DNA of 27,154 nucleotides, taken from the IMG/VR virus record IMGVR_UViG_3300049856_000216, positions 1 to 27,154 of that record. The stretch is one strand, 5' to 3'. Every line of letters begins with the position of its first letter. Positions within the stretch are counted from its first letter, which is position 1. The notes under the pieces are model-generated. The model made no database searches. It saw only the letters and a list, made by a program, of their open reading frames with translations, and was not told the origin of the DNA. This DNA is from a virus. A program made the position numbers and the translations under genes. Shown here piece after piece: positions 1,492-6,415 of the stretch.

Positions 1492-3003
1492 TCAAACCTC
1501 CTCAAATTCAGAATCAATCGGTCCGTTGCCACCAGTGGCCTCGTCCGGAGTATACAGCCCCATTGTTACGTCTGGGTAGACGGCGCGCGCTAGGTCGACG
1601 GAGCATCGGTGGCGCAGCATAGCTCGGCGGTATTTGTCCCAGTTGCTAGGCTCGCCGCTCTGGCTGCGGCCCTCATAGCCATCGCCACGCTTGACCACGA
1701 GTCCAGCCGCGCAGGCGTCCGTCATGTCCCACGATAATCGCGACTCAGAGCGCGCGCCCCTGCGTTTCGTGGCGTAGGTCGCCTTCTCGCGCGTGGACTC
1801 CACTAGGTCGAAATACTCGGCAATCCCGCTTTTTAGCACCAGCCCGACCACGAGATCGGCTTGCATTACGACCTTTCCCTTGATGACATGGAACGCGGCG
1901 AGCGACGTTGCCGCGTCAATGCCGAGCGAGCGCCCACGCATGATTACCGCGAAAATGGCCTGGTGGTTTGGGAATTGTGTATAGAGTCGGGACTCATGCA
2001 GGTGTTTGGCGAGCGTGAACGCACTCGCTGTGCTTGTTGGCTCGAGCTGCACTGACCAGTCCTGGTGCACCACGGTAGTCGCCAGCGCCGTCTGACGCAG
2101 AGGCTCGGGTTTCGAGATAGCAGCTTCGTTGACTGGCGCCGATGGCTCTTGTTCTGCTGTTTCTTTCACTGTTTTCTCCTCTGGCTCCCAAATGCGTTCG
2201 TCCCAAGTCTCCGTGACCGCCGCCGGCGCGTCAACCTTTTCAGGCTCGCGAAATAACGCGTCGAAATCGAGTGGCGCATCCGCGCGCAGCTGGATTAGCC
2301 GGCGCCATGTCTGGATGGGCCCGGCGCATTCGAGAAGCGCGGCGCCGTTCGCGGGCTTGATGTTGTTTGGCTCAAGCCCCAAGGCCCTGTAGATGCCCGC
2401 CAAGTCGTCATACTGCATGAGCAGTTCTGCCGCCCGCATGGCGCCGATGCCAGGCACGCCCGGGATATTGTCTGATTTGTCACCTACTAGCGCCAGGTAG
2501 TCGCCCATTTGGTCAGGCGCAACGCCGAACTTTTCGACCACCTGGAGCCGATCGAATTTGACACCGGTCATTGTGCTGACGACAGTCACGCCGTCGCCCA
2601 CGAGTTGGAGCAGGTCCTTGTCTGCGCTCGCCACCACGACAGTCAGCCCGCGCTTGCGGGCCTCAGCCGTCGCAGCTGCCAGCAAATCGTCAGCCTCGAA
2701 CCCCTCGGACTCCCAGCAGACAACTCCGTCAGCGCGTAGCGTCTGGATTGTCGCGCGCAGCTCCTCGATTGAGGCCTTGTCTTTCTCGGTCCTATTGGCC
2801 TTGTATTCCGGGAATTCCGCCTTTCTCCACGATTTTGGCGAGTCGCAGCAGATCGCGCAGAGCCCAGGGTAGGTCGAGCGTAGTGACATGACCTGTCCTA
2901 GCGCCCTATTGCGAGCGGCACTGATCTCGTCGTTCGCGCTTGAGTGCCAGGCGGCCCAAAATATCGAGCCCATGTCGAGCAGCAGCAGTGTGTCGTCTCC
3001 CAT
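1492..3003 (-). CDS. Fusion of FEN/Pol I-type 5'-3' exonuclease with RecT-like annealing domain
   Basis: 503 residues in two parts. Residues 1-250 form a 5' nuclease of the Pol I/FEN type: Asp10 in LLLLD, the Lys/Arg-rich FPEYKANR, GFEADDLL (101-108), SADKDLLQL with Asp128 and Asp130, and GDKSDNIPGVPGIG (174-187), the helix-three-turn-helix that binds DNA. A Pro/Glu-rich linker spans about 255-315. Residues 325-490 resemble phage RecT-like single-strand annealing proteins: IMRGRSLGIDAATSLAAFHVI, KVVMQADL, then NWDKYRRAMLRHRCSVDLAR and YPDVTMGLYTPDE. In phages these activities normally come from adjacent genes. Joined, they would resect a 5' strand and load the annealer on the exposed 3' strand. 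No frame disruption is visible between the parts. The start at 3003 lacks a Shine-Dalgarno sequence and may be leaderless. Confidence 0.85.
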   Translation of the reverse strand: MGDDTLLLLDMGSIFWAAWHSSANDEISAARNRALGQVMSLRSTYPGLCAICCDSPKSWRKAEFPEYKANRTEKDKASIEELRATIQTLRADGVVCWESEGFEADDLLAAATAEARKRGLTVVVASADKDLLQLVGDGVTVVSTMTGVKFDRLQVVEKFGVAPDQMGDYLALVGDKSDNIPGVPGIGAMRAAELLMQYDDLAGIYRALGLEPNNIKPANGAALLECAGPIQTWRRLIQLRADAPLDFDALFREPEKVDAPAAVTETWDERIWEPEEKTVKETAEQEPSAPVNEAAISKPEPLRQTALATTVVHQDWSVQLEPTSTASAFTLAKHLHESRLYTQFPNHQAIFAVIMRGRSLGIDAATSLAAFHVIKGKVVMQADLVVGLVLKSGIAEYFDLVESTREKATYATKRRGARSESRLSWDMTDACAAGLVVKRGDGYEGRSQSGEPSNWDKYRRAMLRHRCSVDLARAVYPDVTMGLYTPDEATGGNGPIDSEFEEV

Positions 3004-3094: not shown

Positions 3095-3244
3095 ATGGTG
3101 AAGAAAAAAACGCTCGTGAAGATCAACACACAACTGCCAGAGGAACTGCTAGCGCACCTCCGAGGCTATGTAGCGGAGCATGGAGCGAAAATGCAGACTG
3201 TTTTCGCGGAGGCCATCCGGCAGTTTTTGGCGGCCAGGCGCTGA
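3095..3244 (+). CDS. Small ribbon-helix-helix DNA-binding protein
   Basis: 49 residues: a Lys-rich start, a short strand (KTLVKINTQLP), then helices EELLAHLRGYVAEHG and MQTVFAEAIRQFLAARR. This is the size and pattern of Arc/CopG-type RHH proteins, which bind DNA as dimers through the paired strand. It is the first rightward gene, directly behind a TTGACA promoter that overlaps an inverted repeat, so autoregulation of the divergent region is plausible. Its TGA is followed immediately by the ATG of the methylase relic at 3245. A longer in-frame reading from 2888 runs antisense through the exonuclease start and was rejected. Confidence 0.7.
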   Translation: MVKKKTLVKINTQLPEELLAHLRGYVAEHGAKMQTVFAEAIRQFLAARR

Positions 3245-3292
3245 ATGTCTGACCCGCTACGCGCCCCATTCCCATATTTCGGTGGCAAATGA
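3245..3292 (+). pseudogene. 15-codon relic of a Dam/D12-class adenine methylase
   Basis: The ATG at 3245 reads MSDPLRAPFPYFGGK and then TGA (3290-3292). APFPYFGGK matches the S-adenosylmethionine-binding start of D12-class (Dam-like) N6-adenine methyltransferases, in which it is followed by about 230 more residues. Here everything after the Lys is missing and the stop overlaps the start of an unrelated, beta-class methyltransferase (ATGA, 3289-3292). It may survive as a translated leader that couples the RHH gene to the methyltransferase. Confidence 0.6.
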
Positions 3293-4059
3293 CGGAGCTA
3301 CATCCTGATATCGCCGCGGTGCTGAGTGGCGAGCGGCAGTGGTGCGTAGTGGCCGGCGACTGTCGCGAGTTGCTCCCGGCGATTCCGGAGCGCGGCGTTG
3401 ACCATGTGGTTTCGGATCCACCTTTCGAAGAAGCGGCACACACCAAGCAGCGCCGAGTGAAGCGCGGCGGGAAAGCGGAAACGCTCTCGTTCGAGCCGCT
3501 CTCGTTCGAGCTGCGCTCGTTCTGTGGTGCGGAGTTCGCGCGCATCGCGCGCCGCTGGTCGATCGTGTTCTGCCAGTGCGAGGCGTCGCAGCTCTGGCGC
3601 CAAGCGATGTCGACGCTTTCTTACCGACGCACAGGTGTTTGGGTGAAGCCGGACGGCATGCCGCAGCTCACCGGTGACCGTCCCGGCATGGGCTACGAGA
3701 CGATCGTCTTCTGCCATCGAAAAGGGCGCTCAAGGTGGAACGGTGGCGGACGCAGCTCCGTGTTCGTCCACAACAAGAACAGCGGCGGCAAGCACTGGCA
3801 CGAGACGCAGAAGCCGGTGCCGTTGATGGTTGAGCTGGTGGAGTTGTTCACCGATGAAGGGGAGGTAATTTTGGATCCATTCTGTGGCTCGGGGACGACG
3901 GGAATAGCGGCACTTCGTCGCGGGCGGCGCTTCATCGGCATTGAGCGAGATCCGGCCGCTGCTCAACTGGCGAACGACCGACTGCTAGCCGAAGACAACG
4001 GGAGCACGCTGCACCACGCACGCATCGGCCAGGTTTCACTTTTCGAGGTGTCCGCTTGA
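3289..4059 (+). CDS. DNA methyltransferase, beta-class order (probably N6-adenine)
   Basis: 256 residues. The catalytic motif DPPF is at 43-46 and the cofactor motif DPFCGSGTTG at 196-205. HETQKP (171-176) precedes the latter, as in many phage and restriction-system methyltransferases. Catalytic motif before cofactor motif is the beta-class arrangement. DPP(Y/F) usually goes with adenine methylation, although N4-cytosine cannot be excluded. The chain has a full set of motifs for a small enzyme. No restriction endonuclease gene is adjacent, so host-mimicking protection or regulation is likelier than a complete restriction system. An imperfect 15-bp tandem repeat lies within residues 66-80 (LSFEP, LSFEL). 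The gene is coupled to the relic upstream by ATGA. Confidence 0.88.
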   Translation: MTELHPDIAAVLSGERQWCVVAGDCRELLPAIPERGVDHVVSDPPFEEAAHTKQRRVKRGGKAETLSFEPLSFELRSFCGAEFARIARRWSIVFCQCEASQLWRQAMSTLSYRRTGVWVKPDGMPQLTGDRPGMGYETIVFCHRKGRSRWNGGGRSSVFVHNKNSGGKHWHETQKPVPLMVELVELFTDEGEVILDPFCGSGTTGIAALRRGRRFIGIERDPAAAQLANDRLLAEDNGSTLHHARIGQVSLFEVSA

Positions 4060-4819: not shown

Positions 4820-5175
4820 ACCCATACCTGGAAGTACCCAAACGATTCGCGGCGGAAAACACCTTCGTCGCATGCGTGGCTGAGGCCTACGACATGACGC
4901 CCGAAAAGCTCTTGGCTCCAGGCCGACGAGCTAGAGCAGTCGAGGCCCGCGCCGTGCTCTGCTGGATGCTCCGAGTGGCGCGACGAATGTCGTTTCCCGA
5001 GCTGGGGGAAATCATCCATCGTGACCATACGTGCGCGATTGCCGCAATCCGGATGGTCAGAGCTAGCCGAGAGTCAAGCCCCGAGTTTTTGGCCTTCACC
5101 GATACTCTGCTGGCTGCGGTGCAGTCTCGGGTGTTGTCGCCGGTGTTGTGGAGCAGGAATTCCGATGAGACCTAA
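4816..5175 (+). CDS. Stand-alone DnaA domain IV-like DNA-binding protein
   Basis: 119 residues. Residues 15-85 match the C-terminal DNA-binding domain of DnaA: VAEAYDMTPEKLL, then EARAVLCWMLR, MSFPELGEIIHRDHTCAIAAIRMV. RDHT plus the following helix is the DnaA-box signature. The ATPase and helicase-loading domains are absent, so it probably binds DnaA-box-like sites as an origin marker, decoy or regulator. Start at 4816: GAGGAGG (4804-4810) is 5 nt upstream; a GTG at 4810 lies within that site. The last codons (Asp-Glu-Thr-stop) lie inside the 30-bp repeat header, which therefore supplies the stop codon. The original C-terminus may have been replaced by insertion of the repeat gene. Confidence 0.8.
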   Translation: MNPYLEVPKRFAAENTFVACVAEAYDMTPEKLLAPGRRARAVEARAVLCWMLRVARRMSFPELGEIIHRDHTCAIAAIRMVRASRESSPEFLAFTDTLLAAVQSRVLSPVLWSRNSDET

Positions 5176-5194
5176 CGACCTCGGGCCGAGGATG
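5165..5194 (+). repeat. 30-bp palindromic header, copy 3
   Basis: It is inverted relative to the copies at 19-48 and 270-299 but in the same sense as local transcription. It contains CCTCGGGCCGAGG, a 6+1+6 palindrome, and the TAA that ends the DnaA-IV gene. Confidence 0.9.
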
Positions 5195-5365
5195 GACGCT
5201 CCCCTGCCCTCTCTACTGCGCTGCAGCCTGCCCTCTCTACTGCGCCCCCGACTGTCCGACCACCTGCGGATCCGCCTGCGCCTACGCCTGTGCCTGCGCC
5301 TGTATCTACGCCTGGGTGTCCGCCTGTCCAACCGCTTGGACGACCGCTTGGAGGACCGCCTGTGA
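5165..5365 (+). CDS. Small tetrapeptide-repeat protein, family copy 3
   Basis: 66 residues. The start is MRPNDLGPRM, identical at protein level to the gene at 299 (minus). After three residues come units LPSL, LRCS, LPSL, LRPR, LSDH, LRIR, LRLR, LCLR, LYLR, LGVR, LSNR, LDDR, LEDR. The period and register match the left-end copies, but the inner residues differ and are much more Arg-rich. Strict Leu every fourth residue is neither a heptad coiled coil nor a pentapeptide solenoid. The ATG overlaps the 3' end of the DnaA-IV gene in another frame. Whether it is translated is unproven, and function is unknown. Confidence 0.5.
   Translation: MRPNDLGPRMDAPLPSLLRCSLPSLLRPRLSDHLRIRLRLRLCLRLYLRLGVRLSNRLDDRLEDRL
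5204..5362 (+). repeat. Degenerate 12-bp tandem repeat, right copy
   Basis: Imperfect 12-bp units such as CGCCTGTGCCTG, CGCCTGTATCTA and CGCTTGGACGAC, more diverged than the left array. Units at the proximal end (about 5204-5250) include a near-duplicate CTGCCCTCTCTACTGCGC that occurs twice. Confidence 0.8.
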
Positions 5366-5367
5366 GC

Positions 5368-5397
5368 TTGACGAATGCCTCACAATGCATCTACATG
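5368..5397 (+). promoter_or_regulatory. Possible promoter before the second RHH gene
   Basis: TTGACG (5368-5373) with a weak TACATG (5392-5397) after 18 nt. The ATG at 5406 lies 38 nt from the -35 start and lacks a ribosome site. This is the weakest of the four TTGAC(A/G) cases. Confidence 0.3.
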
Positions 5398-5405
5398 CCC
5401 GTAGC

Positions 5406-5582
5406 ATGCCAGCCCCTAGACTAAAAAAACCGGCGCAACCCAAGGACCGGCGCCTAGTGATCAACCTCACCGACAAGCAGCTGGACGCCTACCACGCGGC
5501 CGCGTCTCGAGCTAATCGCGCCGTATCGGACTGGGCCCGACTGCTGCTTGACGCGCAGGTACAGAGGTCCGAGGGCCCATGA
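5406..5582 (+). CDS. Small ribbon-helix-helix-like protein
   Basis: 58 residues from the ATG at 5406. After a Lys/Pro-rich start comes RRLVINLTDKQLDAYHAAA and then RAVSDWARLLLDAQ. The short strand, the helix after Thr-Asp, and the turn into a Trp-containing second helix resemble mobilisation-type and phage RHH proteins (INLT-EQL---A and VSEW-R-LL). Earlier in-frame starts lie within the repeat gene. It overlaps the replication gene by ATGA (5579-5582), so it may regulate replication genes. Confidence 0.6.
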   Translation: MPAPRLKKPAQPKDRRLVINLTDKQLDAYHAAASRANRAVSDWARLLLDAQVQRSEGP

Positions 5583-6415
5583 GTTGGGCCAGGCTTGACG
5601 ACCGGGCCAACGAGCACCGTAAGCAACTGGCAGCCGGTGCTGATGCGTGTTGGTTGTGGTGCTGCGGGCTCATGTACGCCAATCGTCAGCCAGCACGCGA
5701 CGGATTTATCCCGGCGCTGGTCTTGCCGATGCTCTATCCGTACCCGCCGCGCTTGCTGGCTAAATGCGCTGAGCGATTGGTAAGCGTAGGTCTGTGGGTA
5801 TCGGTAGATGGTGGCTACCGGATCCACCAGTTTGGCGACTGGAATAGGAGCCGTGAGCAGGTAGAGTCCGAGCGCGCGGCCACTCGTAACAGAGTAGCTA
5901 AGCATCGTAGTAACGGCGTTACACCAACCGTTACTAACGGCGTCAGTAACGCGACTGTACCGGATCCACTCCATCTCCATCTCCACTCCACTCCGGAAGC
6001 CGGAGAGCTCGCGCGCGAGGCGCCGCGTCCGTCCGGCGATCCGGATTTGGACTCACGGCTCACGTCGTGCCCGTTAAACCTCGCGAAAACCTCAGAGGAA
6101 GTCGGAATAGTGCGCGACTTCGTGCAGAAATACCGCGTTGAGCCCGAGCAGATACACGCCGCGGTGCTGGAATTCGTGAGTTACTGGACCATTGGCGGCG
6201 GAATGGGCAAAAAACACGCAGGATGGCCGCGTAAACTCCGCGAGCACCTGCGGAAAGCCTGCGAAAGGCCAGGCGGTCTCGAGCCAGTCGGCGCAATTGC
6301 ACACGCCCCGCGGCAATCCCGGCACCGTGGCTCCGAAGCGCGCGCAGAAGCCGTAGAAAGCGCCAACATACCGAGTCACCAGATGTGGAAAATGCCAGAT
6401 TATTTGAAGGATTGA
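5579..6415 (+). CDS. Replication initiator / replisome organizer-like protein
   Basis: 278 residues. The N-terminal 100 residues have the winged-helix pattern of phage replisome organizers: WARLDDRANEH, LMYANRQPARDGFIP, a CAERLVSVGLW helix, then VDGGYRIHQFGDWNRSREQVE. A basic, Ser/Thr/Val-rich linker (105-140) follows. A second helical region at 170-230 (VRDFVQKYRVEPEQIHAAVLEFVSYW, then WPRKLREHLRKA) is reminiscent of C-terminal helicase-loader regions. No ATPase motif is present. It probably binds the phage origin and recruits the host or phage helicase. The neighbouring DnaA-IV protein and the palindrome-rich DNA at 8214-8451 are candidate partners. It overlaps the RHH gene by ATGA. Confidence 0.75.
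   Translation: MSWARLDDRANEHRKQLAAGADACWLWCCGLMYANRQPARDGFIPALVLPMLYPYPPRLLAKCAERLVSVGLWVSVDGGYRIHQFGDWNRSREQVESERAATRNRVAKHRSNGVTPTVTNGVSNATVPDPLHLHLHSTPEAGELAREAPRPSGDPDLDSRLTSCPLNLAKTSEEVGIVRDFVQKYRVEPEQIHAAVLEFVSYWTIGGGMGKKHAGWPRKLREHLRKACERPGGLEPVGAIAHAPRQSRHRGSEARAEAVESANIPSHQMWKMPDYLKD

Follow-up and report, generated by a model that had tools for sequence, protein, structure and literature searches.

A minute open reading frame of 15 codons, placed directly ahead of a beta-class DNA methyltransferase gene in a viral contig, is recognizable as a true fossil, the 5' end of a phage D12 adenine methylase gene. Most likely, two coupled methylase genes once stood here, and the stub is what stayed behind when the upstream one was lost. 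The window analysed here is a whole virus record of 27,154 bases, a fragment of about 27 kb, and the features concerned are the following.

3245–3292, + strand: mini-ORF MSDPLRAPFPYFGGK and its stop, read as the opening 15 codons of a gene for a D12 adenine methylase, closed by TGA
3289–3292, + strand: stop/start overlap ATGA, the methyltransferase ATG at 3289 being shared with the mini-ORF TGA at 3290–3292
3095–3244, + strand: upstream ORF of 49 aa, ribbon-helix-helix-like by eye, whose TGA abuts the mini-ORF ATG
3277–3285, + strand: TTTCGGTGG, codons of the FGGK motif and the best Shine-Dalgarno-like stretch ahead of the methyltransferase ATG (-4.5 kcal/mol, weak)
3289–4059, + strand: beta-class N6/N4 DNA methyltransferase of 256 aa with N-terminus MTELHPDIAAVLSGERQWCVVAGDC, judged native; assigned by PF01555 and motif order

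The remnant and the gene that follows it

The codons at 3245–3292 are ATG-TCT-GAC-CCG-CTA-CGC-GCC-CCA-TTC-CCA-TAT-TTC-GGT-GGC-AAA-TGA, and they encode the N-terminal FGGK cofactor-site motif of D12 methylases in the exact form APFPYFGGK. A degenerate codon pattern for APFPYFGGK has one site without mismatches in the window, and none of 100 dinucleotide shuffles of the window matches it, even with three mismatches allowed. Against a profile of 98 full-length D12 proteins the 15 residues score 21.3 bits (E 6.5e-6), the next-best segment of the window reaching 3.5 bits; this E-value is flattering, because the profile proteins were picked for having APFPYFGGK, and it is outweighed as evidence by the shuffles and the count of motif specificity. 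The latter comes from a scan of viral contigs for APFPYFGGK and for PFPWFGGK, which gave at least 241 motif sites. Among the 241 sites listed, 192 are intact D12 genes, 31 are D12 starts cut at a contig end and 18 are others, these being, among the matches listed, either short stubs or D12 genes altered by a frameshift, a deletion, an insertion or a replacement; none of the 241 listed sites in viral contigs lies in an unrelated gene.

The first-pass annotation had called APFPYFGGK the D12 N-terminal motif, which agrees with the D12 genes or remnants found at all the listed sites, and had called the mini-ORF a fossil, a word that holds for a 15-residue D12 start that no shuffle reproduces. It had also placed the mini-ORF stop over the methyltransferase ATG, and this is exact. 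The upstream 49-aa ORF, which it designated an RHH gene, has a ribbon-helix-helix-like look; a Pfam search returned no family above the cut-off. A search of phages for relatives of this ORF and the surrounding DNA gave none.

The D12 signal stops at codon 15. A profile search found no D12 body or tail elsewhere in the window, the catalytic DPPY motif of D12 enzymes has no match there, and the mini-ORF holds no Pfam-scoring D12 domain; the remnant is unable to make a methylase. With no signal after codon 15, the far end of the presumed deletion left no trace, and since the window is only a 27-kb fragment, the genome may possess a D12 gene elsewhere. A likeness by eye between the reading beyond the stop (*RSYILISPRC) and D12 proteins (SRxxxLIWPR) was rejected, since 109 of 300 shuffled versions of the 33 bases after codon 15 did equally well.

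The downstream gene belongs to PF01555 (N6_N4_Mtase; E 9.5e-25, 88.3 bits against a cut-off of 26.7), resembles the CcrM and DpnA structures by sequence, and has DPPF at residues 43–46 ahead of DPFCGSGTTG at 196–205, which is the beta-class order. Most of its relatives align from about residue 20 onward only. Some, including L421 and L434, share its start, (I/L)xxVLxGxxxWCVVxGDC, and because the L421 protein has the same N-terminus, the start codon on which the D12 stub exactly stops is taken as native to the family. The idea that the first ~20 residues were borrowed from D12 DNA read in another frame was discarded, this start being common to L421, L434 and others. The C-terminus, QVSLFEVSA, has similar counterparts in L421 (QIGLF) and L434 (QVPMF), and it is reminiscent of a sliding-clamp-binding motif.

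A RuvC-like gene lies downstream of the methyltransferase. On the - strand, a 503-aa ORF (1492–3003) combines a 5'-3' exonuclease (PF02739, PF01367) with a RecT-like annealing domain (PF03837 at 346–489, phrog_4171). No relatives of the RuvC and exonuclease-RecT ORFs were found in viral contigs, and no phage match covered 80% of the 503-aa ORF. Two inverted repeats, 7–51 / 5162–5206 (45 bases) and 270–308 / 5156–5194 (39 bases), 87% complementary, flank 5 kb of sequence in which the exonuclease-RecT, methyltransferase and RuvC genes lie, and a tandem array with a 12-base period occupies 49–264.

D12 genes and D12 remnants in other phages

Directly observed are the remnant with its overlap in the window and, in L421, a D12-beta pair that is intact and built alike. 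There, a complete D12 gene of 410 aa (34.1 bits with PF02086, 431 bits with the D12 profile built here) ends CCTTGAGC, with the TGA lying over the TTG start codon (TTGA) of the next gene, a methyltransferase that begins MSLPADIQAVLDGRERWCVVQGDC and shows 50% identity, with the same N-terminus, to that of the window. A D12 gene also lies directly upstream of a beta methyltransferase in L299, directly downstream in L005, and within about 0.6 kb downstream in L001. L434, whose methyltransferase is a full-length relative of the window's (47% identity), has its D12 gene 1.04 kb downstream; this gene starts VTEPLRAPFPYFGGK and is the closest to the stub found, matching 13 of 15 residues (14 if M is assigned to its GTG start) and 34 of 45 bases, where the 241 motif sites listed reach at most 33 of 45. 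The first-pass annotation had proposed to look for relatives with a full D12 gene at this locus; relatives of the methyltransferase do carry one next to it or further downstream. By identity, the body of the window methyltransferase is closest to L001/L002 (54–58%), not to L421, with which it is not grouped in a methyltransferase tree either. No full D12-beta pair was found at the window's locus in a closer relative: the one contig closely related to the phage, L214 (TerL 82%), lacks both genes in the stretch examined, and its 42-kb record contains no D12 gene. A concatenated D12+beta query matched 1,474 records of named phages, and in none did the match extend over 80% of it. As a separate observation, an ORF of L001 ahead of its D12 gene (5261–5593) opens with D12 codons and runs on as an HNH_3 endonuclease, and the D12 start occurs once more, with a broken frame, before the D12 body.

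The stub itself was sought at 174 loci, each comprising the 5' end of a beta methyltransferase and its upstream DNA, with duplicates and distant chromosomal CcrM relatives included; scoring of the 400 bases ahead of each methyltransferase found it once, in the window itself. Intact D12 genes directly upstream were seen in L421 (= L292, same record) and L299. The pattern PxFGGK-TGA has 13 matches in viral contigs, all unrelated and none a D12 leader. To judge from these scans, the mini-ORF peptide stands alone and is no conserved leader; no second phage carries stub and methyltransferase together, so nothing points to selection acting on the peptide. The first-pass annotation had named as damaging to its reading a lack of relatives with a D12 gene at this place together with poor conservation of the peptide: relatives do carry D12 beside the methyltransferase, whereas the peptide with its stop is not kept.

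Short D12 remnants recur in other phages, among the 18 odd sites listed. When the frameshift-only cases (L195, L206, L211, L315 and L321) are left out, these sites give 11 remnant lineages, in 8 of which the D12 front reaches no further than position 31 of the 339 in the profile (uniform expectation 6e-7); breakpoints and lineages were hand-picked and the test is post hoc, so that this bias is a lead. Internal deletions joined a short D12 front to a D12 tail in L110/L194, L310, L108 and L171. L103 (1381–2259) follows D12 to profile position 256 and continues, in another frame, with the C-terminal ~50 residues of a beta methyltransferase; it reads as a chimera of a D12-beta pair. In L138 (reverse strand from 494), a D12 front of 30 residues is followed by ATGA and an MT-A70 methylase (PF05063, E 1.3e-24) that has a D12 tail as C-terminus; the 23-base CAGATGGAGTTGGGATTGTGACG is present at both ends of this gene. 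L098 has, on the reverse strand from 10051, a D12 gene whose front and tail are parted by an insert with an ORF on the opposite strand, by eye a Vsr-like homing endonuclease. Among open papers, none on D12 remnants was found.

Origin of the stub

We consider it probable, though well short of certain, that a D12-beta pair lost its D12 body by deletion, kept 15 codons and the overlap, and thereby turned the remnant into a short relay. The ancestor would have had a D12 gene directly upstream of the beta methyltransferase, with a 4-base stop/start overlap; the deletion would have taken nearly all of D12 and left the start codon, 14 more codons and a stop lying over the intact methyltransferase start. 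One such event would at once account for a D12 stub that overlaps a methyltransferase start still in its native form. The reading also draws on the D12 genes near related methyltransferases in L434, L005 and L001, and on comparable D12 losses in L110/L194, L310, L108, L171 and L103. Speaking against it are the place of the window methyltransferase in the tree, apart from L421, the lack of D12 in L214, the absence of any trace of the far deletion end, the want of a named-phage record covering the D12+beta query, and the finding of stub plus methyltransferase in no second phage among the loci scored. Since L421 has a D12 gene overlapping a methyltransferase with the same N-terminus, a deletion in a tandem pair is simpler than a swap, and we infer that deletion rather than replacement made the stub. 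The claim of the first-pass annotation that one methylase replaced another is unsupported as worded, and 'swap' is probably the wrong name for the event.

Replacement would mean that the beta methyltransferase recombined into a D12 gene after codon 15, the rest of D12 being lost. L138, with its MT-A70 methylase set between D12 front and tail, offers a precedent, and D12 5' ends elsewhere have been invaded by endonuclease genes (L001 with HNH_3, and L098). We nevertheless hold this course of events to be unlikely: L138 has a D12 tail, whereas none follows the window methyltransferase, an absence that weakly favours deletion; the methyltransferase keeps its native N-terminus, and it is precisely at its own start codon that the stub stops; and enzymes of this kind are already found as neighbours of D12 genes. 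An artefact of assembly, in which reads of a D12-bearing phage were joined to the window contig, is very improbable. Its origin as an IMG/VR virus contig and the finding of the arrangement only once would suit such a chimera, but a random join would rarely fall exactly on the native methyltransferase start and create an overlap like that of L421. It is hardly credible, finally, that the peptide evolved as a regulatory leader and resembles D12 by convergence or chance, even if the mini-ORF occupies the position of a coupling leader, given the shuffles, the D12 signature at every motif site listed, and the fact that the peptide with its stop recurs nowhere in viral contigs or in the 174 loci searched.

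A possible ribosome relay and comparison with known systems

The stop of the upstream 49-aa ORF and the methyltransferase start are 44 bases apart, a distance spanned by the mini-ORF, and the ATGA at 3289–3292 is a 4-base overlap of the termination-reinitiation type. A search for a strong ribosome-binding site for the window methyltransferase found none: the score of the best stretch is matched or bettered by 24% of 383 ATGs examined, and compares with -10.3 kcal/mol for the L421 methyltransferase. Ribosomes leaving the 49-aa ORF, or starting on the mini-ORF, would end on the methyltransferase start and could reinitiate there. We infer that the mini-ORF is translated and aids methyltransferase expression by termination-reinitiation, and the role of coupling leader suggested in the first-pass annotation appears plausible. 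Of 14 overlapping gene pairs tested in one study, 13 were strictly coupled (PMC6728339); in another, coupling was almost lost once the gap reached about 20 nt, and 15 nt from the end of the upstream gene were enough for it in reporters (PMC10666635). The mini-ORF could therefore carry ribosomes across the 44 bases.

It is a doubtful proposition that phages deleting D12 tend in general to keep its first 15–30 codons because these relay ribosomes into the overlapping gene that follows. If so, a lost enzyme would have become a translation adaptor, with the window as its most reduced form, in which the FGGK codons also supply the Shine-Dalgarno-like GGTGG. On the deletion reading alone, the window would be a clear example of the shrinkage of a phage methylase operon, one enzyme being lost and the translational joint to its partner kept. 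Should such remnants relay ribosomes, it would be worth annotating the short 'junk' ORFs found between genes in phages, and natural deletion scars could reveal the length of upstream gene needed for coupling.

Phage genomes contain gene remnants and in-frame deletion scars, where the opening codons of a lost gene persist and run into a stop. The presumed scar in the window likewise consists of a few opening codons and a stop; unlike such phage remnants generally, it ends on the start codon of its neighbour and may be a relay. With the phage D12 adenine methylases (PF02086) it shares the N-terminal APFPYFGGK, the ATG start and an adjoining second methyltransferase gene, but unlike them it keeps 15 codons only, with no DPPY motif and no Pfam-scoring domain. 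The gene after the stub belongs with the beta-class PF01555 methyltransferases (relatives of CcrM, RsrI and DpnA), from which it is set apart by a D12 remnant overlapping its start. The arrangement has the same ATGA overlap as the termination-reinitiation pairs of Huber et al. (2019, 2023), in whose reporters a short upstream end is enough; in contrast to those pairs, the upstream 'gene' is here a 15-codon remnant, and its coupling to the methyltransferase is putative.
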